A program made the position numbers and the translations under genes. The notes beneath the pieces were generated by a model that had not been told where the DNA came from, did no database searches, and worked only from the letters and a program-made list of their open reading frames with translations. DNA of 64,000 bases from Niabella yanshanensis. Its GTDB lineage: Bacteria > Bacteroidota > Bacteroidia > Chitinophagales > Chitinophagaceae. This document shows positions 4,696 through 41,257 of the stretch, piece after piece (the first letter of the stretch is position 1; each line of letters starts with the position of its first letter). The DNA lies in NCBI RefSeq assembly GCF_034424215.1, contig NZ_CP139960.1, forward strand, positions 2,232,001 through 2,296,000, in the 5' to 3' direction.

Positions 4696-4723
4696 ATATG
4701 CATCGCTTTAATTAAGTACTGAT

Positions 4724-12760: not shown

Positions 12761-12830
12761 CTGTCAGTTTTTTAATATAAAAACTGTCAACCTATACCAG
12801 GACAAGACACTATTCACTATTCCTTATTCA

Positions 12831-13751
12831 CTATTCACTCACCCGCTCTACCCCGTTCTTGGCAATAGTAGTAACATATACGTAGTTTTCAATACCGATA
12901 CTGTCGTATACCTTTTTCATAATGTCGCCGACCATCTGAGCCGTAGCTTCATTTTCACTCAACATAAAAATAGAAGGACCCGAACCGGAGATCCCTCCAC
13001 CGAGCGCACCCGCTTCTTTGCATTTGGCTTTTACTTCATCGAAAGCAGGAATCAGAATACTCCGAACGGGCTCTATAATTACATCCTCCAGGGAACGCCC
13101 GATTAGTCCCCGGTCATTGGTCATAAAACCCGCCACCAGGCCGGCAATATTTCCCCACTGTTTAATGGCATCTTTTAAATATACCTGCTTGCGTAATATT
13201 TGTCTTGCATCAGCCGTGCGCACTTCTATCTGCGGATGCACTACTGTTACAAATAAATCAGGACTTGCAATAGGTACTATATCCAGGGGATGTATGGAAC
13301 GGATTAATGTAATGCCTCCTAATATGCAAGGGGTAATATTATCTGCGTGTTTTACACCGGTTGCCAGTTTTTCCCCGATCATCGCAAGTTGTACCAGGTC
13401 GTCGGTCGAAAAAATGTCGCCTAACAAAATGTTAGCGCCAACTGCAGCACCCGCCGCACTTGCCGCGCTAGACCCCAGACCACTACCGGGTTTGATATGC
13501 TTTTCAATAGTAACCCTGATCCCCTTGTTAAAACCGGCCTTTTCTATTGCTGCCAATAACACTACACCCGCTACGTTCTTTTCTGGTTCGGTGGGCAGGT
13601 TAAAGGCATCACGGTTTTCTATTACTACACCCGGTTGATCTATTATTTCAAACTCCATGATATCATAAGGTGCTTTTAAAGCAAGACCCAATATATCAAA
13701 ACCACATACCAGGTTGGCAACGGTTCCCGGAGATTTTATTTTTACTTTCAT
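12831..13751 (-). CDS. thrB: Homoserine kinase
   Basis: The 306-residue GHMP kinase phosphorylates homoserine to O-phosphohomoserine. The ATP-binding loop GSGLGSSAASAAGAAVGAN is clear near residue 90, and the C-terminal GHMP motif GALGGGISGSGPSIF is present. It starts 17 bp after the thrA stop, so the two are translated from one message. Its stop lies 22 bp from the IS end. Confidence 0.96.
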   Translation of the reverse strand: MKVKIKSPGTVANLVCGFDILGLALKAPYDIMEFEIIDQPGVVIENRDAFNLPTEPEKNVAGVVLLAAIEKAGFNKGIRVTIEKHIKPGSGLGSSAASAAGAAVGANILLGDIFSTDDLVQLAMIGEKLATGVKHADNITPCILGGITLIRSIHPLDIVPIASPDLFVTVVHPQIEVRTADARQILRKQVYLKDAIKQWGNIAGLVAGFMTNDRGLIGRSLEDVIIEPVRSILIPAFDEVKAKCKEAGALGGGISGSGPSIFMLSENEATAQMVGDIMKKVYDSIGIENYVYVTTIAKNGVERVSE

Positions 13752-13768
13752 AATATACGCTTGATCTT

Positions 13769-16225
13769 TTAAATGCTGGCAGCTCTTACAATATCGGCAA
13801 ACACGCCGCTGGCGGTTACATCAGCACCCGCTCCGGCCCCCTTTACTACCAGTGGTTGTGAAGGATAACGTAGTGTATAGAACAATACTACATTATCTTT
13901 CCCGTACAAATGATAAAGGTCGTTTTCAGGAGCGATATGTTGCAGTCCTACAGAAGCCTTACCCTCGTTAAAAGTAGCTACAAATTTTAATTTACAGTTT
14001 TGAGCATCGGCTTTGTCCAGCAGCTGCTTAAAATGAGCTTCATGCCGGTGCATACAGGCATAAAAGGCTTCTACATCCCCTTCCATGCATTCTTGGGGTA
14101 AAAATCCGTTATTACCGATATCTTCCATCTGCATTTCATGACCGGCTTCACGCGCAAGAATCAATATCTTTCTCATTACGTCGGTACCGCTTAAATCCAG
14201 CCTGGGATCCGGCTCGGTATATCCCTCTTCCTGCGCCTGCCTGACCACATCCGAAAACGGCCGGCTTCCATCGTAATTATTGAATACGAAATTCAATGTC
14301 CCGCTTAATACAGCTTCCAGCTTCAGCACCTCATCGCCGCTGTACACCAGGTCATTTAAAGTGCCTATAACCGGCAATCCGGCGCCCACATTGGTTTCAA
14401 ATAAAAACTTGCAGTTAAACTCACGGGCCAGGTCTTTTAATCGCTTATAGTTCGCGTAATCAGAAGACGCTGCAATTTTATTACAAGCCACGACCGATAT
14501 GCTTTTTTGTAATAAACGGTCGTAGATAGCGGCCACATCCGGGTTAGCCGTGATATCTACAAAAACGGAATTCCGTAAGTTTTTATTAATAACATGCTCA
14601 ACAAATAAAGGCAGGGACGCTTTTTCCCCCTGTTTTAGTTCCCCTTCCCAATTGTCCAGCGCAATTCCTTTTTCATTCAACACCATGGTACGGCTGTTGC
14701 TGATACCTATTACGTTGATCTTAATTTTCAGGTGCTGTTGCAAGGAAACCAGCTGCTTTTCTATTTGTTGCAGCAATTTGGAACCAACATTACCTACTCC
14801 GGCAATAAATAAGTGCACCTGTTTAAAAGTAGTTTCGAAAAAGTCTTCGTGTAAAACATTAATTGCCTTGCGCACATCTATGGTAGAAATAACGGCGCTG
14901 ATATTTTTTTCTGAAGATCCCTGCGCAATAGCGCGTACATTGATACCATTGCGGCCCAATGCACTAAACATCTTACCGCTTACACCCGGGTGACTTCTCA
15001 TCTGCTCCCCTACCAGGGCTACAATTGAAAGATCGGTTTCAACTTTTAAAGGCTCCACTTTCTGTAATGCCAGTTCATTGGCAAAAGCCTCGTCTATAGC
15101 TTGCTTTGCGGCATCTGCTTTTCCCGCATCAATAGCCACGCATATGGAATGCTCTGAAGAGCTTTGTGTAATCAAAATAACGTTGATCTGCTCATTACTT
15201 AAGGCTTCAAATAATCTCTTGGAAAATCCCGGAATACCTATCATACCGCTTCCCTCCAGGCTTAATAAAGCCAGGCTATTGATGCTGGAAATACCACGGA
15301 TAATATTGCCGTCTGATTGAGCCGCAGAGCGCTCATTATTGAGTACCAGCGTGCCGGCATCCTCCGGGGCAAAAGTATTTTTAATCCATACAGGTATATT
15401 CCTGGTCATCACCGGTTGCAAAGTTGGAGGATAAATCACTTTGGCGCCGAAATGCGATAATTCCATTGCCTCGCCATAAGATATCTTCTCAATCACCTTG
15501 GCATTAGCCGCCAGGCGTGGGTCCGCAGTCATCATACCGCTTACATCTGTCCAGATCTCCAAAATCTCTGCATTTAATGCAGCTGCAATAATCGCAGCAG
15601 TATAATCAGATCCGCCACGACCAATTGTAGTCGTAATACCGTCTGCATTGCTGGCAATAAAACCCGGTACAATACAAAGTGATTGTTGCAGGCTGTTAAA
15701 ATAATCAACAATGTTAGCCTGTGTTGCTTCAAAATTTACCTGGGCCTGCGTATAATTGCTATTGGTAGTAATCAACTGACGGGCATCCTTCCATTGTACA
15801 TCTACCTGGTCAAAGCGAAGCTTCTCTGCAATAATTTGCGAAGACAACCACTCTCCATAACTCGCCAAACGGTCTTTGGTACGCGGTGTTATTTCGCTTA
15901 AAAGAAAAATACCATTACAGATATCTTCTATTTCGTTAATGGATGTTTTAACGAGGCTTAATAACTGGCTTTGATGCGCTACCGGTATGAGACTTTTTAC
16001 CGCATCAAAATGACGTTTCTCTATTTCAGTAATAGCCTGCTTGTAATCTTCGCTTCCCCTGGCTGCGTTATTCGCGGCCTGCAATAACATATCTGTTACG
16101 CCACCAAGCGCCGATACCACCACAACCGTTTTGTTTTTACTTACTGCCTTTTTTACGATCGCAGCTACTTTGTTTATATTCTCAGCATTGGCTACAGAAG
16201 TACCGCCAAATTTTAAAACCTGCAT
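13769..16225 (-). CDS. thrA: Bifunctional aspartokinase / homoserine dehydrogenase
   Basis: The 818-residue protein equals E. coli ThrA in length and architecture. It has an aspartokinase domain starting KFGGTSVANAENI, two central ACT domains (VALVGEQMRSHPGVSGKMF and nearby), and a C-terminal homoserine dehydrogenase with an NAD(P) fold (FIAGVGNVGSKLL) and catalytic block (EAVLSGTLNFVFN). It catalyses the first and third steps from aspartate to threonine and is expected to be threonine-sensitive through the ACT domains. It is the first gene of the thr operon, preceded by a Thr-rich leader peptide. Confidence 0.97.
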   Translation of the reverse strand: MQVLKFGGTSVANAENINKVAAIVKKAVSKNKTVVVVSALGGVTDMLLQAANNAARGSEDYKQAITEIEKRHFDAVKSLIPVAHQSQLLSLVKTSINEIEDICNGIFLLSEITPRTKDRLASYGEWLSSQIIAEKLRFDQVDVQWKDARQLITTNSNYTQAQVNFEATQANIVDYFNSLQQSLCIVPGFIASNADGITTTIGRGGSDYTAAIIAAALNAEILEIWTDVSGMMTADPRLAANAKVIEKISYGEAMELSHFGAKVIYPPTLQPVMTRNIPVWIKNTFAPEDAGTLVLNNERSAAQSDGNIIRGISSINSLALLSLEGSGMIGIPGFSKRLFEALSNEQINVILITQSSSEHSICVAIDAGKADAAKQAIDEAFANELALQKVEPLKVETDLSIVALVGEQMRSHPGVSGKMFSALGRNGINVRAIAQGSSEKNISAVISTIDVRKAINVLHEDFFETTFKQVHLFIAGVGNVGSKLLQQIEKQLVSLQQHLKIKINVIGISNSRTMVLNEKGIALDNWEGELKQGEKASLPLFVEHVINKNLRNSVFVDITANPDVAAIYDRLLQKSISVVACNKIAASSDYANYKRLKDLAREFNCKFLFETNVGAGLPVIGTLNDLVYSGDEVLKLEAVLSGTLNFVFNNYDGSRPFSDVVRQAQEEGYTEPDPRLDLSGTDVMRKILILAREAGHEMQMEDIGNNGFLPQECMEGDVEAFYACMHRHEAHFKQLLDKADAQNCKLKFVATFNEGKASVGLQHIAPENDLYHLYGKDNVVLFYTLRYPSQPLVVKGAGAGADVTASGVFADIVRAASI

Positions 16226-16300
16226 GGTTTATAACAATTAAAATATTAAGGATGATTTATCAGGAACGGCCTCATTGGCCCAGGTGGTGATATGACGAAG

Positions 16301-16353
16301 TACAACCCTTAACGGGTTGTGGTAATAGTTGTAGAGGTAGCAGTTGCTACAAC
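16301..16353 (-). promoter_or_regulatory. Threonine attenuator: mutually exclusive hairpins
   Basis: Three pairings compete. Stem A joins 16347-16353 to 16328-16334 (GTTGTAG with CTACAAC, 7 bp). Stem B joins 16314-16320 to 16302-16308 (ACAACCC with GGGTTGT, 7 bp) with the leader stop codon in its loop. An alternative joins 16328-16333 to 16301-16306 (TACAAC with GTTGTA). Stem A and the alternative cannot coexist, nor can stem B and the alternative. A ribosome stalled on the Thr codons would cover stem A. No U-run follows stem B, so termination may be Rho-dependent or the control may act at another level. A further GGCC-AATGA-GGCC hairpin lies nearer thrA. Confidence 0.65.
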
Positions 16354-16389
16354 GTAAACCTGACTGATATGTGTATAGTTGTTATACAT
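16309..16389 (-). CDS. thrL: Threonine operon leader peptide (26 residues)
   Basis: A short minus-strand frame begins ATG at 16389 and ends TAA at 16309, 83 bp before thrA. Its last 12 residues are ATATSTTITTTR: of the last 11 codons before the final Arg, 7 are Thr and 1 Ile. This closely parallels E. coli thrL, whose core is also a Thr/Ile run. The ribosome-binding region is a weak AGG four bases before ATG. The Thr codons overlap the arms of hairpins described separately. It is seen directly in sequence; attenuation is inferred. Confidence 0.85.
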   Translation of the reverse strand: MYNNYTHISQVYVVATATSTTITTTR

Positions 16390-16456
16390 GAACCTGCACA
16401 AGATAAGACAGGATTAAAATACAAACAAATATTTTTTGGTAAAGGCTTATTCCCGT

Positions 16457-17887
16457 TTAATATTTCCGGGTGCTGATCACGTTATCCGGAAGGCTGAGGT
16501 GGTTCCAGTCTTTATGAAGAGCCATTGCCGCCCCCATGGCTGTAGCCTGTGACACGGACGCTGCAAAAACTTCTGTTCGCGGATAAGCTTCAGCCAATAG
16601 CTGCATATAGGTTTCATTTTTTGCGAAGCCGCCATCAACAAATATCTTTTTCACTTTGTCATTATATACAAGATCGGTGGAGCGTTTTTGTGCAATGATC
16701 ACCTGCCTGATGAAATTAATATATGCAGCTTCGTAACTCACATAATTGGCAACATCAAAATCATTGAGATCGTTTAAAGCCGGTTCATCTTTCAACAGGC
16801 TTTTATCATAAGCTATCTTCTCAAAGTAATTAGGAACTTCAACAAAATATTCCGATAATTTTTTAATGATCTGCTCATGGGCATACCCTGCAAACAGACG
16901 CGAAGATTTCACTGTATTTCCTTCGTAAGTCATATAACAAAGGCAATCTTTTTCCAATTCCTGTTTCGTAAGCGGTGTATCATTAAAAGCATTCATACTG
17001 ATACACCAGGTCCCGGTAGAGATTAACAAAAATGGCTCATTTACATTTTGAATGTAAGGAATAAATGCTGCAGAGCTATCGTGAAGGCCAATGCCACATT
17101 TAAGCGCTTTCCCGTTGTAAATGATATCTATCGCTTTAGCTGAAGAAAATACCGGGGCCAGCTTTTTATCAATACCCTCTTTTACTACCCAATCATGATA
17201 GCCATGTTTACGGTAATCCCATAGGGCAGTATGACAACCGATGCTGGTGATATCAGAGTACTTCTCACCACTAATTAAATAGCTCAGGTATTGCGGAAAA
17301 TGCAGGGAAGTCAGAGTTTTATCAAACAGCTTTGTCTTATCGTATTTTAAGGAGTAAAGCTGCAAGCCTGAGTTCAGATTCCCCAAAGCAGGCGATGCGG
17401 TAGCAATAGCCACATCTTCTTTGGTTCCATAAGTAGCGTAAAACTGCTCTTCCGTCTTAGCGGGGTAAGGCTTAAGATAATTATATAAAGGTGTTACAGG
17501 TACATCCCTTTCATCGAGGTGGACAAAACTGGCGCCGTACGACGAAAAGTTAATGGCCCTTATATCATAAGTATTGCTATCAATATACTTGTTTAATGTA
17601 TCGAGCACCCATCTGCGCAAGGCTCTTATGTCCTCACAGGCAAATCCATCCTCATCTTCAATCTCTGCAAAGTTTACAGATACTTCTTCTACAATTTTAT
17701 AGTCTTCGTTAAACAGGAAAAACTTTTTGTTAGTTTTTCCAATATCGAATATTGCAATAACAGGAATCAAAACAATGTACAATTTAAGATTGAAGCATAT
17801 CTGAACGAACCACTCAATCAAATTTTTAAAGCTAAACAACAAATAAAACGATATTCCCCCTTTGCAGGGAAAATATCGTTTGTACAA
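16457..17887 (-). CDS. rhaB: FGGY-family carbohydrate kinase, L-rhamnulokinase
   Basis: The kinase phosphorylates L-rhamnulose in the cytosol. FDIGKTNKKFFLF is the N-terminal ATP phosphate loop, GLHDSSAAFIPY and ISTGTWCISM form the second ATPase motif, and VDGGFAKN ends the fold. The ATG at 17887 gives 476 residues, but the first 40 (hydrophobic, MYKRYFPCKG...) are not family-like and their codons form a terminator hairpin. The homologous part begins near a TTG at 17770 (IPVIAIFDIG), which would give 437 residues. I favour the later start. It is the last gene of the rha operon. Confidence 0.88.
   Translation of the reverse strand: MYKRYFPCKGGISFYLLFSFKNLIEWFVQICFNLKLYIVLIPVIAIFDIGKTNKKFFLFNEDYKIVEEVSVNFAEIEDEDGFACEDIRALRRWVLDTLNKYIDSNTYDIRAINFSSYGASFVHLDERDVPVTPLYNYLKPYPAKTEEQFYATYGTKEDVAIATASPALGNLNSGLQLYSLKYDKTKLFDKTLTSLHFPQYLSYLISGEKYSDITSIGCHTALWDYRKHGYHDWVVKEGIDKKLAPVFSSAKAIDIIYNGKALKCGIGLHDSSAAFIPYIQNVNEPFLLISTGTWCISMNAFNDTPLTKQELEKDCLCYMTYEGNTVKSSRLFAGYAHEQIIKKLSEYFVEVPNYFEKIAYDKSLLKDEPALNDLNDFDVANYVSYEAAYINFIRQVIIAQKRSTDLVYNDKVKKIFVDGGFAKNETYMQLLAEAYPRTEVFAASVSQATAMGAAMALHKDWNHLSLPDNVISTRKY
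17841..17878 (-). terminator. Hairpin with T-rich tail between rhaI and rhaB
   Basis: A 12-bp stem (17849-17860 with 17867-17878, two G-U pairs, 6-nt loop) is followed on the minus strand by TTTTATTT. It begins 11 bp after the rhaI stop. It could terminate or attenuate transcription before rhaB, or protect the 3' end of the upstream message. Confidence 0.7.
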
Positions 17888-29664: not shown

Positions 29665-29883
29665 ATGAGATTTCTTGTCTTGTTAATTTCTACAATAGTT
29701 TGCACCTATGGCTACGCTCAAATGCCAACATTAAAGGTGAATGGGGAAAAAGATAATCCGGTTATCCTGGAGCAAATGGATATCAATGTAGTCATTACCG
29801 GTAATATTGCTACCACCACCATGCAGCTGAGTTTTAAAAACAATGGTAGCCGGGTTTTGGAAGGCGAACTCACCTTTCAGTAA
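29665..29883 (+). pseudogene. Truncated N terminus of a VIT-domain secreted protein
   Basis: The 72-residue frame has a signal peptide (MRFLVLLISTIVCTYGYAQ) and the beginning of a VIT (vault/inter-alpha-trypsin) domain: ILEQMDINVVITGNIATT and TMQLSFKNNGSRVLEGELTF. Intact relatives continue directly with a PLP-containing strand and extend for several hundred to about a thousand residues. Here a TAA comes immediately after ELTFQ, and the following 170 bp do not restore the domain in any frame I could read. It is most likely a 3'-deleted remnant. Confidence 0.7.
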
Positions 29884-30274: not shown

Positions 30275-33200
30275 ATGACATTAATTGTTTATGAGAAAAA
30301 AGGCAGTTTGCTGCCCTTTTTACGAAGCATGTCGAAAACAGGAGCAATCGCTTGTTTTTCACTGCTTCTTGTATTTCAGGCGAAAGCTGAAATAAATTTG
30401 AAGAATGACTTTGATTTAAAGACAAACATCTCTTACACAAAAAAGGCTTTTAAGACGGTTACCGGTCAGGTTATTAATGCAGACGGCAGTCCTGTTGAGA
30501 GTGCGGTGGTAAGCGTCAAAGGCCGTAACACTGTCACTACGACCGCTAATGATGGTAGTTTTTCTATAGAAGCCAATGAAGGAGACGAACTGATCATCTC
30601 TCATGCTTCCTATATTACACAAACCATTATAGTGGGGTCAACCAGTGCTATTACTGTCACCCTCCGGCAGAACATAGGTAATTTAGACCAGATTGTAGTG
30701 ACTGGTTATACCGAATACGCGAAACGCAACAGCCCCAGTGCTTCCACCCAGGTAAGCGCTGCAGATATCAATAAGGTTCCGATGAGCACCCTTGACCAGA
30801 TACTGCAGGGAAGGGTACCGGGTATGAGCGTTATATCAAGCTCGGGGCAACCAGGTCAGAGTGCTTCTGTAGTAATCAGGGGTATGGGATCTATAACCGG
30901 CACCACTACTCCTTTATATATTATGGATGGTATTCCTATAGAAAGTGGGTACTTCCAAACCATTAACCCGGAGGACATCGAATCAGTTACCGTATTGAAA
31001 GACGCCTCCGCCAAAGCATTGTATGGCTCCAGAGGCTCCAACGGTGTAATTGTGGTTACCACCAAAAAAGGCAAGAAAGGCAGGCTGAATATAGGCTACA
31101 GTTCGCAATATGGTTTCTCAACATTGACACAGCCGGGTTTTGAAATGATGGACACCCGTGAGCGCCTGCGATTTGAAGAAGAAGTAGGACTGGAAACCGG
31201 CCGTGATATTGGTCCGGGCTGGACGCTATCTTCTAAAAACCCGGATTATGCTACGCTGTCTCCTATTGAGCAACAACAAAGAAATAGTATCCTGGATAGC
31301 CTGGGACGGATCAATACCGATTGGAGGGATCTTTTCTTTCAGAACGCCAGCTTTATGCAGCAGCAACTGAGCCTGAGCGGTGGCAACGAAAATGTTCAGA
31401 CCTACAACGCAATAGGCCTGTGGCGAGAGCAGGGTATTGTAAAGGAAACCGGGCTGGACAGGTTTTCACTGCGCAGCAATACCAATATGAACTATGGCAA
31501 GTTTACCGCCGGCTTCAATATCAACCTCGGTTACTCCAGCTCCCGGTTCACTTATAATGAAGGAGGAACCAGCGTAGGGTCACCTATGGCATCAGTATAT
31601 TATGCACTACCTTACGAATACCCTTACACTCCCGACGGTGTATTTCATGCTACTGATGATGGGTTAGGCTTTTATGATACCCGCGAGGGAAGCAGGGGTA
31701 TCGACGTCTTATACGGTGCTTCGGACAAGACGGAACAATTTAAAACCATCCTTGGAGTTAACCTTGCTTATGAAATCATCAAAGGATTAAAAATCAGTAC
31801 CCGTAATGGCATTGACTATAGGAATTCAGTAGACCAGGTATTTATCAACCCCTTGTCTTATATTGGCAGCAGGCAGCCGGGCGAAAAGGGCGCTTTTGGA
31901 GAAGGATTCAGAAGATATTTTAACCTCGTATCGACCTCCGGTATTACTTATAAGAAAAGAGCCGGCATACACGATTTTGAAGCATCCGGATTCGTGGAAT
32001 ATGTGTACAACAATACCAGATCTTTTAGTTACCGAGGGTATGGCGTGGATGACCGGTTACCCGAAACGCCTGCCGGCATCACGGTTAGTACCGATTTCCT
32101 GCCAGATATATCTGGCACCCGTAGAAACAGTGCATTGTTTTCCTATATGGGCTTGGGCCGGTATACATTGAACAATAAATATACTTTAACCGCCAGCTAC
32201 CGATACGATGGCGCTTCTGTGTCGTCGGTACCACTTAAAAACCGCTGGCACGGCTTTTACTCTTTCGGCGCTAACTGGGATGTTAAGCAGGAAGATTTCT
32301 TAGCCACAACTGATATCATTACAGCCCTGAACTTAAGAGCCAGCTACGGCCAAACTGCCAGTTCTTTTGATAAATATTTTGAATACCTGCCGCTCTATGG
32401 CGTAGGAACTACCTATGGCGGCCAACAGGCCATTGTTCCCACTTTTATCGGGAACCCCGACTATGACTGGGAATACGTAGATGAACTCAATATAGGATTT
32501 GACATTTCACTTTTTAAAACACAAAGAGTAAAATTAACCGCTGACTGGTATAATAAGATCACCAGGAACATGTTTATAGATCTGAGACCTTCCGCCACTG
32601 CAGGAGCGGGGACCGATGGAGATATACCTTTAAGTTCGGCAAGAATGGCTAATAAGGGAATTGAATGGAGCCTGAGTGGCGATGTGATCCAAAAGCCAGA
32701 TTTTAACTGGAACATAGGCGTAAATGGAGCTTATAATAAAAACGAAATTTTACGGGTAAGTGATGTTACGGATTTTATACAGGAAGGCGATACCCGATGG
32801 ATTGAAGTAGGGCGTCCTTATGGCACTTACTATGCACCCAGGTGGGCCGGGGTAGACCCTGCAAATGGTGATGCGCTTTATTACAATCGGGATGGCTCTG
32901 TTACCAACGTGTATAGCGCGGAAGCACAATCAGTACCACTTTCTGCCAATATGTTCCCCAAATTAACCGGCGGTATTACTACTGCAGTGCGTTGGAAAAG
33001 TATAACAGTGAGTGCCTTGCTCGCGTTTGTATCAGACGTACAGCGCTGGAACAATATCGACTTTTACAATGAAAACGAGACCTACATGGGCAGCAACCAA
33101 AGCAGAAGAATGTTATATGATCGCTGGAAAAAACCAGGCGATAATACCACTCTGCAACGCATAGATGTACCAAGAAATTTTACTTCGAAAGATATACAGG

Positions 33201-33427
33201 ACGCCTCCTTTATGCGTTTAAGAAACCTGCAACTCAATTACAGCATTCCCGCTACCCTGTTGCAATCTACCAGGATTTTAAAATCTGTAGATGTTTTCGT
33301 ACAAGGGCAAAACCTGTTTACCTGGACCAACTGGCGCGGACTGGATCCTGAAAACAACCGCCAGTACGGCCGGTTTGAGTATCCGAATGCCCGGAAATAC
33401 ACCGCAGGTATAAATGTTAATTTTTAA
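30275..33427 (+). CDS. SusC/RagA-family TonB-dependent outer-membrane transporter
   Basis: The 1050-residue protein has an N-terminal signal, a carboxypeptidase-regulatory-like domain (TVTGQVINADGSPVESAVVS), a TonB box region, a plug domain with the SusC hallmarks (VIRGMGSITGTTTPLYIMDG and VTVLKDASAKALYGSRG) and a 22-strand barrel ending in an aromatic residue (GINVNF). It imports large oligomers across the outer membrane together with the SusD partner that follows 10 bp later. Its neighbours encode cyanophycinases and an isoaspartyl peptidase instead of glycan enzymes, so the cargo is inferred to be cyanophycin or its beta-Asp-Arg products. Confidence 0.96.
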   Translation: MTLIVYEKKGSLLPFLRSMSKTGAIACFSLLLVFQAKAEINLKNDFDLKTNISYTKKAFKTVTGQVINADGSPVESAVVSVKGRNTVTTTANDGSFSIEANEGDELIISHASYITQTIIVGSTSAITVTLRQNIGNLDQIVVTGYTEYAKRNSPSASTQVSAADINKVPMSTLDQILQGRVPGMSVISSSGQPGQSASVVIRGMGSITGTTTPLYIMDGIPIESGYFQTINPEDIESVTVLKDASAKALYGSRGSNGVIVVTTKKGKKGRLNIGYSSQYGFSTLTQPGFEMMDTRERLRFEEEVGLETGRDIGPGWTLSSKNPDYATLSPIEQQQRNSILDSLGRINTDWRDLFFQNASFMQQQLSLSGGNENVQTYNAIGLWREQGIVKETGLDRFSLRSNTNMNYGKFTAGFNINLGYSSSRFTYNEGGTSVGSPMASVYYALPYEYPYTPDGVFHATDDGLGFYDTREGSRGIDVLYGASDKTEQFKTILGVNLAYEIIKGLKISTRNGIDYRNSVDQVFINPLSYIGSRQPGEKGAFGEGFRRYFNLVSTSGITYKKRAGIHDFEASGFVEYVYNNTRSFSYRGYGVDDRLPETPAGITVSTDFLPDISGTRRNSALFSYMGLGRYTLNNKYTLTASYRYDGASVSSVPLKNRWHGFYSFGANWDVKQEDFLATTDIITALNLRASYGQTASSFDKYFEYLPLYGVGTTYGGQQAIVPTFIGNPDYDWEYVDELNIGFDISLFKTQRVKLTADWYNKITRNMFIDLRPSATAGAGTDGDIPLSSARMANKGIEWSLSGDVIQKPDFNWNIGVNGAYNKNEILRVSDVTDFIQEGDTRWIEVGRPYGTYYAPRWAGVDPANGDALYYNRDGSVTNVYSAEAQSVPLSANMFPKLTGGITTAVRWKSITVSALLAFVSDVQRWNNIDFYNENETYMGSNQSRRMLYDRWKKPGDNTTLQRIDVPRNFTSKDIQDASFMRLRNLQLNYSIPATLLQSTRILKSVDVFVQGQNLFTWTNWRGLDPENNRQYGRFEYPNARKYTAGINVNF

Positions 33428-33437
33428 TCTGATCATC

Positions 33438-34850
33438 ATGAACACAAGAAAAATAGTTGCTTTTGCATTATTGACAGGACTTACATTCCAGTCCTGCTCC
33501 AAACTGGATTCGCCGCCCACCGATTTTATTGATCCCACCAAAGCCTTTCGAAATTTAGATGATCTGAATATGGGGGTGTTAGGTACTTATGCTGTGCTAA
33601 CTTCTACGCTTATTGAGGCTAGTGCCATAGTGTCGGACGAAGTAATGTACCCTACAGAAAATACCGTATCCAATAACACGGCGCACAGGTGGTTATATAA
33701 TTCCACATCAGGATCTGTCACATCGGCCTTTTACGAATACTATGAAGTTATTGATCGCGCTAACCGGGTACTGGAGGCTATTTCCGTGATTAAAGTGGGG
33801 GCCGCCGGTCAAAGCCGCCTGGATCAATACCACGCTGAAATGCTCGCCGTTAAAGCTTATTCTCATTTCGAACTGCTAAAGGCCTACGCTTCTTCCTATG
33901 AGCCTGATGGAATGGGCGTGCCTTATATGAAAGAGCGCAAAGTAGGTTACCCGGCAAGAGAATCAGTGAAATCAAATTTCGACAATATCAATGCAGATCT
34001 CAAAGCCGCCAAAGAACTGATGTCTCCAGGTTTTAACGACAATACACGTATTACCAGATCCGGTATAGCTGCTATACAGGCAAGAGTTGCTTTATACGAA
34101 AAAAAATGGAGCGACGCTGTTACCTATGCGTCCGAAGTGATCGCTGCAGAGCCTTTGGCTCCGAAAAGCGATTTCAGCAAAATATGGGATGACAATAGCC
34201 AGTCAGAAGTGATCTGGAAACTGGCCAGAGTGATCGGGGATTCACGCCTGGGAGCTGCATTTTTTCGCGAAACGGGCGAAATTGTGCTGTATGCCCCTTC
34301 GTTCAAATTGATCGATCAGTTTGGTACGGTAGCTCAACGAGCAGACGATGTTCGCTTCGACAGTTATATTCAATATGCTCCTGCCCGGCCAGCTGGTAAA
34401 TCGCAATACCTGGTTAATAAATATGTCGGTGGTGATGCTGCTTATCGCGGGCTTACTGCCGTTAAGCTGTTTCGCGCTGGAGAAATGTATTTAATAAAAG
34501 CAGAAGCTGAATTGGAAAATACAAATGGTACAGCAGCCATTGCTGCGGCAGCCAAAGATCTGAATGATTTGAGAAGAGCCCGGATCTACAATTATATTGA
34601 CCAGAATTTTACTGATAAGCAAAGTCTCTTAAATGCTATCTACAACGAACGTTTTAAAGAGCTGGCGTTTGAAGGCCACCGCTTTTTTGATCTGAAACGC
34701 AGGAATCTACCGGTAGAGCGTACCACACAGGATGCCATCAATACATCAGGAGCGGTGAGGTTAGATCCAACAGCGGCTCAATATTGTTTCCCCATTGCAG
34801 CAAATGAAATGTCTGTTAATAAAAATATGATCCAAAACCCGAATTATTAA
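33438..34850 (+). CDS. SusD/RagB-family surface lipoprotein
   Basis: I chose the ATG at 33438, which gives a good lipoprotein signal (MNTRKIVAFALLTGLTFQSC, lipidated Cys20) and a 10-bp gap after SusC; a start at 33414 would overlap SusC. The 470-residue body has the SusD helical TPR-like fold with YHAEMLAVKAYSHFELLKAY, and the C-terminal RagB block NERFKELAFEGHRFFDLKR. The C terminus ends NMIQNPNY. It forms the lid that delivers substrate to SusC. Confidence 0.95.
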   Translation: MNTRKIVAFALLTGLTFQSCSKLDSPPTDFIDPTKAFRNLDDLNMGVLGTYAVLTSTLIEASAIVSDEVMYPTENTVSNNTAHRWLYNSTSGSVTSAFYEYYEVIDRANRVLEAISVIKVGAAGQSRLDQYHAEMLAVKAYSHFELLKAYASSYEPDGMGVPYMKERKVGYPARESVKSNFDNINADLKAAKELMSPGFNDNTRITRSGIAAIQARVALYEKKWSDAVTYASEVIAAEPLAPKSDFSKIWDDNSQSEVIWKLARVIGDSRLGAAFFRETGEIVLYAPSFKLIDQFGTVAQRADDVRFDSYIQYAPARPAGKSQYLVNKYVGGDAAYRGLTAVKLFRAGEMYLIKAEAELENTNGTAAIAAAAKDLNDLRRARIYNYIDQNFTDKQSLLNAIYNERFKELAFEGHRFFDLKRRNLPVERTTQDAINTSGAVRLDPTAAQYCFPIAANEMSVNKNMIQNPNY

Positions 34851-34868
34851 CCCCTGAGATTATTAGTA

Positions 34869-35930
34869 ATGAAAAAATTATATATCCTATTGGTTGCGGC
34901 AGTGTTGCTGACGAGCTGCGAAAAAAAGTGGGACCCCAATGATCCTTTCAGACCTGATGCTCCCCAACCTGCTGAGCCGGAGATCCGGTCAGCTTCTATT
35001 GGTATCGTTGGTGATGTAGCCGATGTACAAACCACCACCAAAAGTGGAATTGTGATCATGGGCGGAGGCGCGGACGTATCAGCAGCCTTTCAATGGATGA
35101 TAGCCCGGAGCGGTGGTGGCGATGTGGTGATCATCAGGGCAACAGGCACCGATGCTTATAACCCTTATATAAAAGGATTAGGAACCGTAAATTCGGTTGA
35201 AACATTGAAGATTGACTCCCGTAAGCTGGCAGATGATGAGGGCGTAGCTAAAATCATCCGCGATGCAGAAATGCTGTTTATTGCCGGGGGTGATCAATCT
35301 GATTATACCGGGTATTGGAAAGGCACTAAGGTAATGGCTGCGATCAATTATTTACTGACTGAGAAAAAAGTACCTGTAGGCGGTACCAGCGCCGGTGCAG
35401 CCATTCTTAGCAATTATTATTTTAGTGGAGAAAGAGGTACTTTGGAGTCTGCCGAAGCATTGGCTAATCCATACGCTCAAAAAGTAACCCTTGGCCGGGA
35501 GGATTTCCTGAAAGCACCATTCCTTCAAAATGTAATAACCGACCAGCATTTTAGTCAACGTAACCGCCAGGGGCGTTCTATCACATTCCTGGGCAGGATC
35601 ATGAAAGACTGGAGTAAAACGCCTAATGGCATTGCCGTTGATGAAGCCACGGCAGTGTGTATCGATGAAACCGGTATAGCACAGGTAGTAGGTTCAAACA
35701 AAGCTTATTTTCTAAAAACAAATGCCGCCAAAGCTCCCGAAACCTTCACTTCGGGAAGCCCGGTTACCTGGAACAACAGTGGCCAGGCGATACAGGTATC
35801 AACTATTTCAGCAGCCGCAACCGCCAATAAATTTAATATGACCAGTTTTGAACCGGAAACCACAGCCGGCCTGGAAAAGTTCTGGTGGTCGGTGATAGGT
35901 GGAAATTGGGTTCAGTCCCCTCGTCCTTAA
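34869..35930 (+). CDS. Lipoprotein cyanophycinase (peptidase family S51)
   Basis: The 353-residue protein has a lipoprotein signal (MKKLYILLVAAVLLTSC, Cys17). The S51 fold follows: GIVIMGGGADVSAAF, FIAGGDQ (Gln143), the nucleophile elbow GGTSAGAA (Ser174), TDQHFSQRNRQGR (Asp225, Gln226, His227, Arg231, Arg233, Arg236) and GIAVDEATAV. The GGDQ and DQHFxxRxRxxR residues are those I recall as lining the beta-Asp-Arg pocket of Synechocystis CphB, so real cyanophycin specificity is plausible. Being a lipoprotein beside SusCD it may sit on the cell surface and cut polymer before import. A C-terminal extension of about 70 residues is unassigned. Confidence 0.88.
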   Translation: MKKLYILLVAAVLLTSCEKKWDPNDPFRPDAPQPAEPEIRSASIGIVGDVADVQTTTKSGIVIMGGGADVSAAFQWMIARSGGGDVVIIRATGTDAYNPYIKGLGTVNSVETLKIDSRKLADDEGVAKIIRDAEMLFIAGGDQSDYTGYWKGTKVMAAINYLLTEKKVPVGGTSAGAAILSNYYFSGERGTLESAEALANPYAQKVTLGREDFLKAPFLQNVITDQHFSQRNRQGRSITFLGRIMKDWSKTPNGIAVDEATAVCIDETGIAQVVGSNKAYFLKTNAAKAPETFTSGSPVTWNNSGQAIQVSTISAAATANKFNMTSFEPETTAGLEKFWWSVIGGNWVQSPRP

Positions 35931-35961
35931 TGACTCACAGAAAAATAAAATACATTTAAAA

Positions 35962-37014
35962 ATGAGCACTATTCTAAAAACTTTTTTTTCAGTTCTGGCT
36001 TGTAGCATCATCATGCTATCCTGCAGCGATAAACCAGCAAACACTGATAACTCCAGATATGTGATGGTTATTCATGGCGGTGCAGGTACCATTGAAAAAA
36101 AATTCATGACGCCGGAAAAAGAAAAGTCCTACACGGCTGCGCTTACAGAAGCATTGCAGCATGGATATAACTTATTGAAGGAAGGGAAAACCTCGGTAGA
36201 AGCAGTGCAGGCAGCTATTAATGTAATGGAAAACTCTCCGTTGTTTAATGCAGGGAAAGGTGCCGTATTCACAAATGATGGCAAAAATGAACTGGATGCT
36301 TCCATCATGGATGGGCAAACCCTGAAAGCCGGCGCGGTAGCGGGTGTCACCAATATCAAAAATCCCATAAATGCGGCGATAGCCGTAATGAACCAATCAG
36401 AGCATGTAATGATGGTAGGCAGGGGTGCCGAGCAGTTTGCTGCGGCCAACGGCTGTGATACCGTCCCCCCTTCTTACTTTTTTACACAAGAGCGTTGGGA
36501 TCAGTTGCAAAGAACCATAAAGGAAGAAGAACAGGGTCGCGCAGCATATAACGATATTGATCCCCGAAAAAGTGAGATCTATGGCATTTCTGATAAAGAC
36601 AAAAAATTTGGAACGGTTGGAGCCGTGGCATTAGATAATAAAGGCAACCTGGCTGCCGGCACTTCTACTGGAGGAATGACTAATAAAAGATACGGTCGTG
36701 TAGGCGACTCCCCTATCATTGGTGCAGGTACTTATTGCAATAATGCCACTGCCGGTATTTCCTGTACGGGTTGGGGCGAATACTATATACGGGAAGTTGC
36801 GGCTAACCGTATGTCGGCGCTTATAGAACTGAAGAAGCTTCCTGTTAACGAAGCGGCCAAACAGGTTATTGAGGAGATCGGAAAAATGGGCGGCGACGGT
36901 GGTATCATTGGCCTCGATAAAGAAGGAAAAATCGCCATGGAATTTAATACATCAGGCATGTACCGCGGTACAGTTGATAAAAATGGTAAAATATCAGTAT
37001 ACATCTACAAATAA
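35962..37014 (+). CDS. Isoaspartyl peptidase / L-asparaginase (Ntn hydrolase), lipoprotein
   Basis: The ATG at 35962 gives 350 residues with a lipoprotein signal (STILKTFFSVLACSIIMLSC, Cys21); an upstream start would spoil it. The plant-type asparaginase fold is clear: VIHGGAGTI, NAGKGAVFTNDGKNELDASIMDG, the self-cleavage site KKFGTVGAVA with nucleophile Thr218, and RYGRVGDSPIIGAGTY. The enzyme cuts isoaspartyl (beta-Asp-X) dipeptides. In this operon it would split beta-Asp-Arg from cyanophycinase into aspartate and arginine. It begins 31 bp after the first cyanophycinase gene. Confidence 0.93.
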   Translation: MSTILKTFFSVLACSIIMLSCSDKPANTDNSRYVMVIHGGAGTIEKKFMTPEKEKSYTAALTEALQHGYNLLKEGKTSVEAVQAAINVMENSPLFNAGKGAVFTNDGKNELDASIMDGQTLKAGAVAGVTNIKNPINAAIAVMNQSEHVMMVGRGAEQFAAANGCDTVPPSYFFTQERWDQLQRTIKEEEQGRAAYNDIDPRKSEIYGISDKDKKFGTVGAVALDNKGNLAAGTSTGGMTNKRYGRVGDSPIIGAGTYCNNATAGISCTGWGEYYIREVAANRMSALIELKKLPVNEAAKQVIEEIGKMGGDGGIIGLDKEGKIAMEFNTSGMYRGTVDKNGKISVYIYK

Positions 37015-37856
37015 TGAAAACATATTTGAATAAAAAGAGCGCATTGCTCACCGCATTGTTATTTGCTACAATGTTTTCCTTCGCCCAGAATAAAGGAACC
37101 CTGTTTATTATTGGCGGTGGAGACAGGTCTCCTGCATTTGTAAAACAAATGGTGGAAACAGCCAAAATGAAACCCAGCGACTACATTGTTGTATTACCCA
37201 TGGCTACCAGCATTCCTGAAGAGTCGGTGGCTTATATCAGCGGTCAGTTATCAGTTGCATGTAATAATAAAATCACCAGCTTTAATTTCACCAAAGCCCA
37301 GGCCGACAACCAACAGAGCTGGATTGATTCGGTTAAAAATGCACGCTTTATTTTCATCACCGGCGGTGATCAGAATAAATTTATGGCGGTAGTGCGAGGC
37401 ACCAAACTATACGAAGCGCTTCACCAGGCCTTTCGCAATGGCTCCACTATTGCTGGCACCAGCGCTGGCGCCGCAGTAATGTCCCAGATCATGATCACCG
37501 GTGAAGAAAAAGGAAAGAGTGACAGAGACAGCTTCAGGGAAATTAAAAGCAACAGTGTTATTACCTCTTCCGGGATGGGCTTTTTAACCGCTGCGATCAT
37601 TGATCAGCATTTCATCATCCGCAGCAGGTATAACCGGCTTTTAAGCACTTTGGCAGACCACCCCGATAAAATGCTGATCGGGATTGATGAAGCTACAGCC
37701 ATTATCGTTACAGGGAAGAAAGCTACCGTAGCCGGAGAAAGCCAGGTAGTGGTGGTTTCAAAACCTAAAAGGGTAAAAACAACACAAGGCAAAGCCACTT
37801 TTAAAAATGCAACCATTTCTCTTTTTTCCGCCGGAGAAAGTTTTGAACTAAAATAA
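37014..37856 (+). CDS. cphB: Exported cyanophycinase (peptidase family S51)
   Basis: The 280-residue protein has a cleavable signal peptide (MKTYLNKKSALLTALLFATM, then FSFAQ) and no lipobox, so it is probably periplasmic. Motifs: LFIIGGGDRSPAF, FITGGDQ (Gln120), AGTSAGAAVMS (Ser150), IIDQHFIIRSRYNRLL (Asp197, Gln198, His199, Arg203, Arg205, Arg208) and GIDEATAIIV. All pocket residues expected for cyanophycinase are present, and the length matches CphB (about 270 aa). Its ATG overlaps the last base of the isoaspartyl peptidase stop, implying translational coupling. Confidence 0.93.
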   Translation: MKTYLNKKSALLTALLFATMFSFAQNKGTLFIIGGGDRSPAFVKQMVETAKMKPSDYIVVLPMATSIPEESVAYISGQLSVACNNKITSFNFTKAQADNQQSWIDSVKNARFIFITGGDQNKFMAVVRGTKLYEALHQAFRNGSTIAGTSAGAAVMSQIMITGEEKGKSDRDSFREIKSNSVITSSGMGFLTAAIIDQHFIIRSRYNRLLSTLADHPDKMLIGIDEATAIIVTGKKATVAGESQVVVVSKPKRVKTTQGKATFKNATISLFSAGESFELK

Positions 37857-37921
37857 TATCTAAGCCAGTCCTAGGGAAATATAAAACCGGGGCGGGGCCG
37901 ACAAAACTTAAATACGTTAAC

Positions 37922-39055
37922 ATGACGATCTTACTAAAAAAACTGTTTCCCGCTTTTTTGCTGATAGCAATAGTAGCGTTGGCGGGCTGTAAAAAGACCA
38001 CCTACAATTTTGATGATTTACCGCCTACGGTGAAAAGCTTCTTTTCAATCGGTAATACCGAATTGAAGATGAACGAACCTATTCAATTCAAAAATGAATC
38101 TGAAAATGCTGAATCTTACAGCTGGGACTTTGGCGATGAGACAAAATCCACAGAAAGTAATCCCACCAAGACTTATACCCAACCAGGTATTTACACCGTT
38201 AAGCTAAAAGTAGTGGGCGCCGGTGGTACAGGTAATTACACCAGGGATCTCACCATCATCGATCCTGATGCCAATACAGGAAGCGATAAAGAGCTTTTCT
38301 TTATTGAATACGGTACCAAGCTGATACGTAAAATTTCGCTCGTTCCTGGCTCTGCGGCTGAGACAGTGATAAATATGACAGGCAAAGAAGCGCATGGAAT
38401 GGCTTATGACTCTATCAATAAAAAAATATACTATTGCGACTTTCAAACTTCCAATTCTGGTAAGATATTAAGGATGGATGCTGATGGTACTAATATTGTA
38501 GAACTGCTTTCAGGCCTCGCAGCGCCATACGGAGTGGCTATTAACCTGGCTGAAGGCAAAATGTACATAGCAGATGGCCCCAATGTATCAAGAGCCAATT
38601 TGGATGGAAGCGGGTATGAGAAAACTTTCATTACGGTAACTGATGGCGCCATGAGAGCAGTAGGGTTTAACCGTAAAACTAATATCATTTATTACTATGA
38701 AGTCAACGATGAGAATATGCACGCTGCAAAATCTGACGGAACAGGAGCAGGAATAGTTATTGAGGGAGCTTATGGCTATGGCTTGTTGATAGATGAAGTA
38801 CACAATAAAATTTATTATGACGATCGCAACAAAACGGGACTTATGCAGGCGAACCTGGATGGTACCGGCATTATTAAACTGGCTAATTTTACAGGTAGCA
38901 GGGGTAGTTCGGGCATAACCATTGATTATAGCGCCAATAAACTTTATTGGGCTGAAACAAATAACAACCTTATCAAACGCGCCAACCTGGACGGAACAGC
39001 AGCCGAAACTTTTGTATCAGGCGTTAATAACCCCAGAGGCATGTTTATCAAATAA
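37922..39055 (+). CDS. Lipoprotein with PKD domain and YWTD-like beta-propeller
   Basis: The 377-residue protein starts with a lipoprotein signal ending IVALAGC (Cys23). Residues about 35-110 form a PKD domain (ESYSWDFGDETKSTESNP, TYTQPGIYTVKLKV). The rest has about five propeller repeats of the LDL-receptor YWTD type: KKIYYCDF...ILRMDADGTNIVEL, KMYIADG...VSRANLDGSG, NKIYYDDRN...MQANLDGTGI, NKLYWAET...IKRANLDGTA. It lacks any catalytic motif I can see. In glycan loci a non-catalytic surface lipoprotein in this slot binds substrate, so it may be a cyanophycin-binding protein. Confidence 0.85.
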   Translation: MTILLKKLFPAFLLIAIVALAGCKKTTYNFDDLPPTVKSFFSIGNTELKMNEPIQFKNESENAESYSWDFGDETKSTESNPTKTYTQPGIYTVKLKVVGAGGTGNYTRDLTIIDPDANTGSDKELFFIEYGTKLIRKISLVPGSAAETVINMTGKEAHGMAYDSINKKIYYCDFQTSNSGKILRMDADGTNIVELLSGLAAPYGVAINLAEGKMYIADGPNVSRANLDGSGYEKTFITVTDGAMRAVGFNRKTNIIYYYEVNDENMHAAKSDGTGAGIVIEGAYGYGLLIDEVHNKIYYDDRNKTGLMQANLDGTGIIKLANFTGSRGSSGITIDYSANKLYWAETNNNLIKRANLDGTAAETFVSGVNNPRGMFIK

Positions 39056-39075
39056 GATTATAAACAAATTTCAAT

Positions 39076-39109
39076 AAAAAAGCAGGAAGAGCTCTATTCC
39101 TGCTTTTTT
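39076..39109 (+). terminator. Strong terminator closing the cyanophycin operon
   Basis: AAAAAAGCAGGAA (39076-39088) pairs perfectly with TTCCTGCTTTTTT (39097-39109) around an 8-nt loop, 20 bp after the last gene's stop. Confidence 0.92.
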
Positions 39110-39238
39110 CATGCCTGTCATTGGGGTGCAATTCAAATTTTCGCCTATGCTATATTTCCTTTTGTAGATCCTTTTGAGCCTGTCGGGAAATCTCCAGGGC
39201 GATCGCATCAATTCCTCTTTGTTTGAAACAGAATATCA

Positions 39239-39396
39239 CTGCTACGCAGCTCAGATAACTAACGAATTATTATGGCAGCTATTAATACGATGCCGCTATG
39301 CGGCAGTGATCACAATAATAAAAGCAGCATAGCTGCGATATATTAATAAAGAACAATCACAAAGGAGGTAGAGCTGCATCGCAGCGATATATTAAT
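39239..39396. repeat. Array of four small GC hairpins with TATATTAAT tails
   Basis: In the 556-bp gap 39056-39612, four short hairpins with 3-nt loops occur: CTGC-TAC-GCAG (39239), GCCGC-TAT-GCGGC (39292), GCAGC-ATA-GCTGC (39324) and GCTGC-ATC-GCAGC (39373). The last two are each followed directly by GATATATTAAT, 49 bp apart. A larger GC palindrome lies at about 39448-39471 (GCCCGTCTG facing CAGGCGGGC). This resembles REP-type intergenic repeats. No gene is credible in the gap. Confidence 0.65.
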
Positions 39397-39560
39397 GATT
39401 CATGCATCCGCCCGGGGAGATCTCTACTATTTCCGAGACGCCTCCCCGTCCCTGCCCGTCTGGTCAGGCGGGCGTACCGGCACGGGCGGGCACTTCGGAC
39501 GGCATGACTTAGCGAAAATTTGAAATACACCCCGTCATTGTCACGTATATCCACTACACA

Positions 39561-39612: not shown

Positions 39613-41097
39613 CTACCTCAAATACCCCAGTATCTTCAGCATGCTTTGTGCCGACTGCTCTTTGGCATATACCCACTCTTCCAGTTCGCCATTCTTATCA
39701 TACTCAATAATAACGTGTTTGGGAGAAGGGATCAGGCAATGTTTAATACCTCCGTAACCGCTGATCTGGTCCTGATAAGCGCCCGTATGGAAAAAACCTA
39801 CATATAAAGGTTCATCATCACTTTCCTGGCTTTGCTTCTTCTCCAGGTCTACTGCATCTACTGGTCGCACCCGGGAGTTGCCTACACCATTATCATTCTT
39901 TATCTTAGGCAGGAACACCTCGTTGATATGCTCTTCACTGTCATAATAATCATGACCATCACAGGTAATACCGCCTAATACTACCCGTTGGTATTCGTTA
40001 TCCCATTTGTTAATAGGTAACATCAGGAATTTCTCCCCGATGCCCCAGGTATCAGGTAAGGTAGTGATAAAAGAAGAGTCGATCATATACCAGGTTTCCC
40101 GGTCGTTCTGACGCTTCTCTCCTATTACACTGTAAATATGCGCCATGCTCTCACCCACTGTGTAGCTGCCAAATTCAGTATAAATATTCGGAACAGGTAC
40201 TTTGGCCTTCTTACAGGCAGATTTAATATTGCTGATGATCTCGTTGATCATAAACTGGTAATCATACTCAAACGCCAGGCTATGCTTAATAGGAAAACCG
40301 CCACCGATATTCAATGAATCCAGCTCGGGACAAATCTTTTTTAACTGGCAATAAAGGTTAATGCTTTTACGCAATTCACTCCAGTAATAGATATCGTCTT
40401 TAATACCTTTATTCAGGAAGATATGCAGCATTTTTAACTGGAATTTATCCTCGTTACCTTCTATTTCATCTACATAAAATTCCAATACATCTTTAGAGCG
40501 AATACCTAGTCTTGATGTATAAAAGGGAAAAGAAGGTTCTTCTTCAGCGGCCACACGTATACCAATCTTAAAAGGCTCTTTACTTTTTACACTGCGTTTA
40601 TACATATTGAGCTCCTCTTTGTTATCCAAAACAGGAATCACATTTTTGAAGCCGCTATTAATAAGCTTGGCAATACGGGAAGTATAATTTCTTTGCTTGA
40701 ATCCGTTGCAAACAATATTGATGTCCTTATTGATCTTACGGCGCTTATACAACTGGTTGATAATATCAATATCATAAGCAAAAGAAGTCTCCAGGTGTAT
40801 ATTGTGCTTAAGAGCTTCTCCTACCACGAATGAGAAGTGAGAGCTTTTGGTGCAATAAGTATAAAAGTATTTTCCTTCATACTTATACTTCTTCATAGCG
40901 TTGGCAAAATACTGCTTGGCCTTGTTGATATTAATACCAATTTTGGGCAGGTAGCTTACCTTTAATGGCGTACCATACTTTTCAACTAACCTCTTATAAT
41001 CAATGCCGTTAAAAATAAGGTCGCCCTTTTTAACTTCAATATTTTCCTGCGGAAAATTAAAGGTCTGTTCAACCAGGCCTAAGTATGAATTGTTCAT
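39613..41097 (-). CDS. speA: Arginine decarboxylase, fold III PLP type
   Basis: The frame is open from 41124, but the ATG at 41097 (MNNSYLGLVEQTF) fits the family better and gives 494 residues. The alanine-racemase-type barrel has the PLP-Lys region FYTYCTKSSHFSFVVGEAL, the Gly-rich LNIGGGFPIKHS and a C-terminal domain with GGITCDGHDYY (the Cys/Asp active-site block) and GFFHTGAYQDQ. It is the compact Bacteroidota form rather than the 650-residue E. coli SpeA. It makes agmatine from arginine for polyamine synthesis. It is convergent with the cyanophycin operon, which would supply arginine; the link is positional only. Confidence 0.88.
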   Translation of the reverse strand: MNNSYLGLVEQTFNFPQENIEVKKGDLIFNGIDYKRLVEKYGTPLKVSYLPKIGININKAKQYFANAMKKYKYEGKYFYTYCTKSSHFSFVVGEALKHNIHLETSFAYDIDIINQLYKRRKINKDINIVCNGFKQRNYTSRIAKLINSGFKNVIPVLDNKEELNMYKRSVKSKEPFKIGIRVAAEEEPSFPFYTSRLGIRSKDVLEFYVDEIEGNEDKFQLKMLHIFLNKGIKDDIYYWSELRKSINLYCQLKKICPELDSLNIGGGFPIKHSLAFEYDYQFMINEIISNIKSACKKAKVPVPNIYTEFGSYTVGESMAHIYSVIGEKRQNDRETWYMIDSSFITTLPDTWGIGEKFLMLPINKWDNEYQRVVLGGITCDGHDYYDSEEHINEVFLPKIKNDNGVGNSRVRPVDAVDLEKKQSQESDDEPLYVGFFHTGAYQDQISGYGGIKHCLIPSPKHVIIEYDKNGELEEWVYAKEQSAQSMLKILGYLR

Positions 41098-41257
41098 TTG
41101 CCATAACGCCGGCTGCACCGGCACTTATTGGTTTAAAAATTGAGCGCTAAATTAGGAAAAATACAAATGTGCAGACATTAAATTGTCTGACTGGAATTCT
41201 GCTAATAAAAAAGGCGATGCATAATGCATCACCTTTAAATTTTTTTGCTATAAGCAA

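Follow-up and report, generated by a model that had tools for sequence, protein, structure and literature searches.

A conserved SusC/SusD operon with cyanophycinase-like proteins in Niabella yanshanensis, predicted to serve cyanophycin scavenging

Genes for the utilization of cyanophycin have been described in several groups of bacteria. A "cyanophycin utilization locus" was reported for the Bacteroidetes strain L21-Spi-D4 (Ben Hania et al., 2017, as cited in PMC10206079), and cyanophycinase genes were found clustered with genes of isoaspartyl dipeptidases in 45 of 52 genomes lacking the synthetase gene cphA1 (Sharon and Schmeing, 2023; PMC10206079). Two proteins of family S51 are encoded by a Balneolaeota satellite of cyanobacteria, with homologues in Salinivirga cyanobacteriivorans, one of them bearing a Por secretion domain, and the genomic context of these genes differs between the two organisms (PMC6243061), while genes for cyanophycinase, synthase and isoaspartyl aminopeptidase are described for Dyadobacter (PMC11573002). 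Here, we consider a stretch of 64 kb (the window; positions 2,232,001 to 2,296,000) of the 5.54-Mb single-contig genome of Niabella yanshanensis, a relative of soil species, in which an operon of six genes joins a SusC/SusD transporter pair with two cyanophycinase-like S51 proteins (S51a and S51b), an isoaspartyl peptidase (IaaA) and a lipoprotein with PKD and propeller domains. The operon is real and conserved, and the original prediction made from this DNA, of a Sus-like locus for cyanophycin, is good in outline, the activity of the enzymes and the substrate being predicted from sequence. We regard the locus as an operon that likely serves the scavenging of cyanophycin from outside the cell, or of a closely similar poly-amino acid with beta-aspartyl linkages.

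The six genes follow one another on the plus strand (30275-39055; Table 1), with intergenic gaps of at most 65 nucleotides (nt) according to the analysis of open reading frames (ORFs) and with small overlaps between SusC and SusD and between IaaA and S51b. They are followed by a hairpin which none of 200 shuffled sequences equalled in folding energy, and for this reason we take the terminator as real; a generic consensus terminator scan did not list it. The most likely start of IaaA is ATG 35962 instead of the GTG given in the ORF list. SusC scores 672.6 bits with TIGR04056 (cut-off 368.25), also matches TIGR04057 and Plug, and is directly followed by the SusD lipoprotein (PF07980, 93.3 bits with a cut-off of 23.1; PF14322, 59.4 bits), which is the arrangement of SusCD nutrient-uptake loci. 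The AlphaFold2 model of SusD, with a predicted local distance difference test (pLDDT) of 87.5, has SusD-superfamily entries as its best Foldseek matches, among which RagB or RagAB take ranks 12, 13 and 16 and no ligand class is singled out. Pfam and NCBIfam scans matched none of the six operon proteins to a glycoside hydrolase, lyase, sulfatase or other carbohydrate-active enzyme. Thus the layout of the operon, its terminator, the absence of glycan-degrading enzymes, the isoaspartyl peptidase of N-terminal nucleophile type and the PKD/propeller lipoprotein all agree with what had been predicted.

This association of genes is not confined to the window. A search of named genomes for relatives of S51a gave at least 489 proteins, and among the best 80, which were retained, the closest belong to Niabella (Chitinophagaceae; 79-80% identity). 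In 43 of these 80 loci an orthologous SusD, 44-80% identical to that of the window, lies in the same gene run, and the same gene order is met in eleven named genera. The 43 loci hold SusC (42), S51b (23) and either a separate IaaA (30), starting in every case no more than 400 nt after S51a, or a fusion of S51a with IaaA (8), so that IaaA directly follows or is fused to S51a in 38 of 43; the complete six-gene set is present in eight. The propeller gene occurs in only nine of the 43 and is therefore not counted as core; its lipobox is found in the window copy and in nine of nine homologues. On a tree of 81 S51a proteins the SusCD label changes six times as against 26.9 after shuffling, none of 500 shuffles reaching so low a value (the fused protein of locus L095 was placed with the SusCD group and those of L102 and L106 with the others). 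Among S51a proteins, 34 of the 35 that are linked and unfused have the motif DQH[FYW]xxRxRxxR, as do seven of nine fused ones (together 41 of 44) and 19 of the remaining 36, a group which includes L102 and L106; for S51b the count is 22 of 23. In six loci without orthologous SusCD (L113, L116, L129, L133, L139 and L142) the pocket reads D[TS]HY..PxRxGR in place of DQHF..RxRxxR, a change which suggests a different substrate; an S51b gene adjoins S51a in L139 despite the changed pocket and the lack of orthologous SusCD.

The same linkage was approached from the side of the transporter. Seven S51-linked SusD proteins were combined into a profile, with which 396 genomes of the order were searched (E 1e-60, up to four candidates scored per genome); it matched 61 genomes with at least 84 listed SusD places, while TIGR02069, run on the same 61 genomes, gave 49 S51 places in 34 of them. 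An S51 gene is present within 10 kb of each of the 13 best of the 84 listed SusD places (577.5 bits or more) and of none of the remaining 71; five of the 13 are rows of the profile, and eight are independent of its building. Of 14 paralogue loci fetched, 12 have both SusC and SusD in view (L180 and L183 end at contig ends), and no S51 or IaaA gene stands beside these 12 pairs within locus positions 4000-17000; ten are in tandem with another SusCD pair. Of 18 places of canonical CphB (above 200 bits) not one has a SusD place from the list of 84 within 10 kb, as against 18 of 31 other S51 places, and the cyanophycin synthetase CphA1 makes up five of ten scanned neighbours of canonical CphB, these ten having been chosen out of thirty loci for a long adjacent ORF. 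Taken together, these counts indicate that storage and scavenging S51 genes are separate. The comparative survey proposed along with the original prediction thus shows that the association of S51a with SusCD is non-random and that S51a tracks one SusD clade.

Both S51 proteins carry GGDQ, GTSAG, DQHFxxRxRxxR and DExTA, and the letters that align to the active site of CphB are the Gln of GGDQ, the Ser of GTSAG, the DQH with three spaced Arg and the Glu of DExTA, which we take to have active-site roles in that enzyme; Ser132 is named in the title of the structure 7uqw. The catalytic Ser, His and Glu are invariant across 30 aligned S51a rows, and for S51b an alignment of 20 sequences, the window's copy included, shows no variation at the nine motif positions. 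S51b passes the TIGR02069 cut-off of 126.6 with 159.6 bits, and S51a is above the cut-off of PF03575 (34.6 against 23.9 bits). The AlphaFold2 model of S51a (pLDDT 90.9) has 7uqv, 7uqw and 3en0 as its nearest folds in Foldseek, followed by peptidase E, and no peptidase E appears in the phmmer PDB lists of either protein. The genome has only two S51 matches, both within the operon. As to the complete cyanophycinase motifs originally noted, all letters are indeed present, but they are not diagnostic: 7uqv, titled "pseudo-CphB" and reportedly inactive in spite of full motifs, has the same letters, which are therefore needed for activity without being a proof of it.

IaaA scores 387.8 bits with PF01112 (cut-off 27) and 330 bits with the NCBIfam beta-aspartyl-peptidase model, below the cut-off of 567. 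Its best PDB match is 2zak (7.6e-86), and the Thr of FG-T-VGAV aligns with the starts of solved beta chains, so that the protein combines the Asparaginase_2 fold with the Thr of a mature beta chain and matches solved isoaspartyl peptidases; the Thr motif is kept in 30 of 30 separate and nine of nine fused relatives. One other, weaker Asparaginase_2 gene is present elsewhere in the genome. A single chain of S51a and IaaA (652-705 amino acids, aa) is encoded in nine loci, eight adjoining an orthologous SusD and one (L095) without it, from Chitinophaga sp. CF118 and YR573, Pseudoflavitalea rhizosphaerae, Paraflavitalea pollutisoli and five metagenome-assembled genomes (MAGs). Three fused proteins, two of them apparently those of L109 and L095, were scanned and showed both Pfam domains; all nine have GGDQ, GTSAG, DExTA and the Thr motif, and DQH is kept in seven and replaced by DMH in the other two. 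No S51b gene follows any of the nine fusions in the parts of the loci shown. Such fusion into one chain is the strongest motif-independent sign that S51a and IaaA would act sequentially on one substrate.

The genome has no CphA1 (best score 113 bits against a cut-off of 850), and for this reason scavenging is the likely role of the locus; internal storage of cyanophycin was rejected on the same ground. The locus shows the pattern by which scavenging clusters are recognized, a cyanophycinase gene clustered with that of an isoaspartyl peptidase in a genome without CphA1. Cyanophycin is the best guess for the substrate given that S51a tracks one SusD clade, that CphA1 is absent and that IaaA follows or is fused to S51a in nearly all linked loci. 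As for the course of utilization, SusD and the PKD/propeller lipoprotein may bind the polymer at the surface, where, or within the SusCD complex, the lipoprotein S51a would trim it; SusC would import oligomers by means of TonB, exported S51b would cut them in the periplasm to beta-Asp-Arg dipeptides, IaaA would split the latter to Asp and Arg, and separate inner-membrane carriers would take up both amino acids. Beta-Asp-Arg is small enough for porins, and TonB-driven SusCD is hence sensible chiefly for the uptake of larger pieces. That oligomers are taken in and their digestion is completed in the periplasm is likewise suggested by the signal-like N-termini, which make S51a a lipoprotein and S51b and IaaA exported proteins, S51b being probably periplasmic. 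The automatic lipobox rule proved too strict: it passed 23 of the 35 S51a that are linked and unfused, and each of nine N-termini viewed among the 12 failing ones has a Cys by eye. For this reason failures were not counted against lipidation of S51a; the residues after the lipobox Cys did not decide surface exposure, and an outward-facing S51a is assumed in this scheme. Among the fusions, eight of nine have no lipobox by the same rule. The claim that one operon covers every step from the surface to free amino acids was too strong, as the six genes include no inner-membrane transporter.

By extension, the widespread SusCD family of Niabella, Sphingobacterium, Pedobacter, Mucilaginibacter, Chitinophaga and their kin might import cyanophycin chains or long oligomers, with an exported S51a-IaaA protein without clear lipobox making free Asp and Arg in the periplasm of some members, that is, a "selfish" uptake of a nitrogen store; we see about as much reason to believe this as to doubt it. 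To our knowledge, no importer dedicated to a non-ribosomal poly-amino acid is on record, and such a family would be the first.

A number of observations weigh against a cyanophycin operon. The TIGR02069 score of S51a (91.7 bits) is under the cut-off, and both S51 proteins find their best PDB match by sequence in the pseudo-CphB 7uqv, so that they may be inactive or differently specific. Clear absence of orthologous SusCD concerns 35 of the best 80 S51a loci (of 37 unlinked ones, L102 has SusCD two genes away and L106 begins at S51a), and nine of the 35 form one Mucilaginibacter clade (L075-L077, L081, L082, L087, L093, L094 and L100), in which S51a has either lost the transporter link or found another use. 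Within the 43 linked loci IaaA is missing from the run in five (L073, L078, L080, L085 and L090) and S51b in 20. S51 matches are found in nine of 17 genomes of the genus and, where completeness is 90% or more, in six of 14, which marks the locus as accessory. The survey counts must be read with the reservation that the SusD model was built from S51-linked members, that the number of candidates per genome was capped and that both surveys share genomes (L066, L084, L095 and L109 among them) and hence are not independent. Finally, a purely exo-acting S51a working outside the cell would set free small dipeptides, for whose uptake SusCD is not required.

An alternative is that the operon serves the import of isoaspartyl-containing or acidic peptides in general, for instance from aged proteins, S51a and S51b being PepE-like or re-specialised dipeptidases and cyanophycin at most one of the substrates. 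IaaA enzymes are promiscuous even in cyanophycin clusters (PMC10206079), peptidase E folds come next after cyanophycinases for the S51a model, and RagAB, matched by the SusD model, is titled a peptide transporter. Since cyanophycinases rank well above peptidase E in Foldseek, phmmer lists no peptidase E at all, and nearly all S51a that are linked or fused keep the pocket motif, which does not vary among the 20 aligned S51b, we consider this rather unlikely. It is quite improbable that S51a, and perhaps S51b, are inactive pseudo-cyanophycinases retained as binding proteins while other enzymes do the cutting: the match of both to 7uqv and the low family score of S51a would suit such a role, but the invariance of the catalytic residues in S51a and its fusion to a Thr-motif IaaA in nine loci, suggestive of sequential catalysis, speak for enzymes. 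The 5.54-Mb genome has 81 SusD matches, which gives every gene a modest likelihood of standing next to a SusCD pair, and the operon could be just one of many such pairs set beside S51 and IaaA by accident; the recurrence of the gene order across genera with diverged SusD, and the sharp split between the S51-linked SusD clade and its paralogues, make the probability of this negligible, and chance adjacency was rejected by the survey of SusD and S51 (13 best places versus 71) together with the 12 S51-free paralogous pairs.

If the cyanophycin reading is true, the capture-cut-import logic that Bacteroidota apply to glycans would also serve a nitrogen-rich storage polymer. Ordinary proteases are not known to attack cyanophycin, and there would be competition for the polymer as a nutrient when it is set free by cell lysis. 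Cyanophycin scavengers may be recognized by this locus family as a marker, S51a-IaaA, as a candidate bifunctional enzyme, would free arginine from cyanophycin by means of a single chain, and the SusCD pair, with a defined repeating ligand predicted, offers itself for structural work.

The STN domain is found in 32 of 41 scanned SusC proteins, the window's SusC being among the 41 and lacking it. In linked loci, the gene directly upstream encodes FecR_C in 31 of 41 cases, and the one next upstream encodes sigma region 4 of the extracytoplasmic function (ECF) type in 29 of 40, as in many nutrient-induced SusCD loci. No ECF/FecR regulator lies in or adjoins the window's operon, and none was found among the scanned upstream ORFs of its short-SusC kin L063, L064, L066, L068, L069, L070 and L078; L072 has an ECF/FecR pair upstream, but on the opposite strand. 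In Sphingobacterium litopenaei the place of the regulator 5' of SusC is taken by a threonine-synthase-like, apparently housekeeping ORF (L070:3973-5277). No promoter is claimed for the operon, given that a sigma-70 scan gave fewer promoter-like sites than shuffled sequences (16 against 20.5). Downstream, a gene of the sodium/dicarboxylate symporter family, whose members carry Asp and Glu, is present in four of 11 scanned loci, all four from Pedobacter (in two of them, picked for an ORF of like size, a short opposite-strand ORF intervenes), and this agrees with Asp being an end product; an arginine carrier was not found among the scanned neighbour genes.

Table 1. Features of the operon and its terminator (positions in the window)
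Feature	Position	Strand	Basis
SusC/RagA-type TonB-dependent outer-membrane transporter, 1050 aa, without STN domain	30275..33427	+	TIGR04056, TIGR04057, Plug
SusD/RagB-type lipoprotein	33414..34850	+	PF07980, PF14322, lipobox FQSC
S51a, cyanophycinase-like lipoprotein, S51 fold with C-terminal extension	34869..35930	+	PF03575, lipobox LTSC
IaaA, plant-type asparaginase / isoaspartyl aminopeptidase, Ntn hydrolase, lipoprotein	35962..37014	+	PF01112, lipobox MLSC
S51b, cyanophycinase, signal-peptide-like start without lipobox	37014..37856	+	TIGR02069
PKD + beta-propeller (DUF5050-like) lipoprotein, accessory binding protein (predicted)	37922..39055	+	PF18911, PF16472, lipobox
Intrinsic terminator, 34-nt hairpin	39076..39109	+	-16.6 kcal/mol, z -3.4

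Flanking ORFs of at least 100 aa encode a META lipoprotein, a metallo-beta-lactamase-fold protein and a decarboxylase. Just 5' of the operon, a 72-aa ORF on the plus strand (29665-29883) with a signal-like start matches PF08487 (VIT domain; E 1.1e-4, 22.8 bits, under the cut-off of 26.5) over the first third of that domain and looks like a truncated gene remnant. Between the terminator and the next gene (39123-39533) a 22-nt inverted pair, 39123-39144 and 39512-39533, 91% alike and spaced by 367 nt, encloses two 25-nt repeats that are 88% alike and end in GATATATTAAT; judged by this structure, it looks like a small mobile or repetitive extragenic palindromic (REP)-like element. The arginine-decarboxylase-like gene beyond it (39613-41124, minus strand) is convergent with the operon and adjoins the genus copies L035, L063 and L064 as well; it was not seen in other loci, was dropped as an operon partner and is probably a housekeeping gene. 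Directly 5' of SusC, transposase-like ORFs (DDE and IS110-type) occur in a Niabella MAG (L063:4889-5164) and in a Chitinophagaceae MAG (L066:3644-4690), as would be expected of a locus that is mobile and accessory. In one genome of the genus (72% complete) there is, far away from the two other S51 matches, a third one that is S51b-like (G461:C1:5962559-5963125).

Compared with systems already described, the locus shares with that of strain L21-Spi-D4 the combination of cyanophycinase genes, isoaspartyl dipeptidase and transporter in a scavenger, and differs from it, as far as PMC10206079 describes it, by IaaA in place of iadA, by SusCD in place of an unspecified transporter and by fusions in some relatives. 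The clusters of Sharon and Schmeing likewise combine cyanophycinase with iaaA in the absence of cphA1 and were read by the authors as scavenging; the transporters named there are those of amino acids, and neither TonB nor SusD is mentioned in the main text (PMC10206079). In Citromicrobium, outside Bacteroidota, a TonB-dependent transporter beside a cyanophycinase was predicted from its context in 2012 to handle cyanophycin, SusD being unmentioned in that account (PMC3400609), and RagAB of Porphyromonas gingivalis is a SusCD-type complex moving peptides, not glycans (PMC11817032). With canonical SusCD polysaccharide utilization loci the operon has in common SusC, SusD and exported hydrolases, as well as ECF/FecR upstream in most of its relatives, but in the window it has neither a carbohydrate-active enzyme nor an adjacent regulator and thus is not such a locus in the strict sense. 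We know of no S51 or IaaA partner of RagAB. The original claim that the principle of polysaccharide utilization loci would be extended here to a non-ribosomal polypeptide is, in view of RagAB, the 2012 proposal of a TonB transporter and the 2017 locus, not all new. Within the open-access literature covered, which leaves most subscription papers aside, we found neither a SusCD operon for cyanophycin nor a fusion of S51 with IaaA described. Cyanophycin-scavenging clusters are thus partly known, while their conserved SusC/SusD version and the fused S51a-IaaA proteins of its relatives look new.

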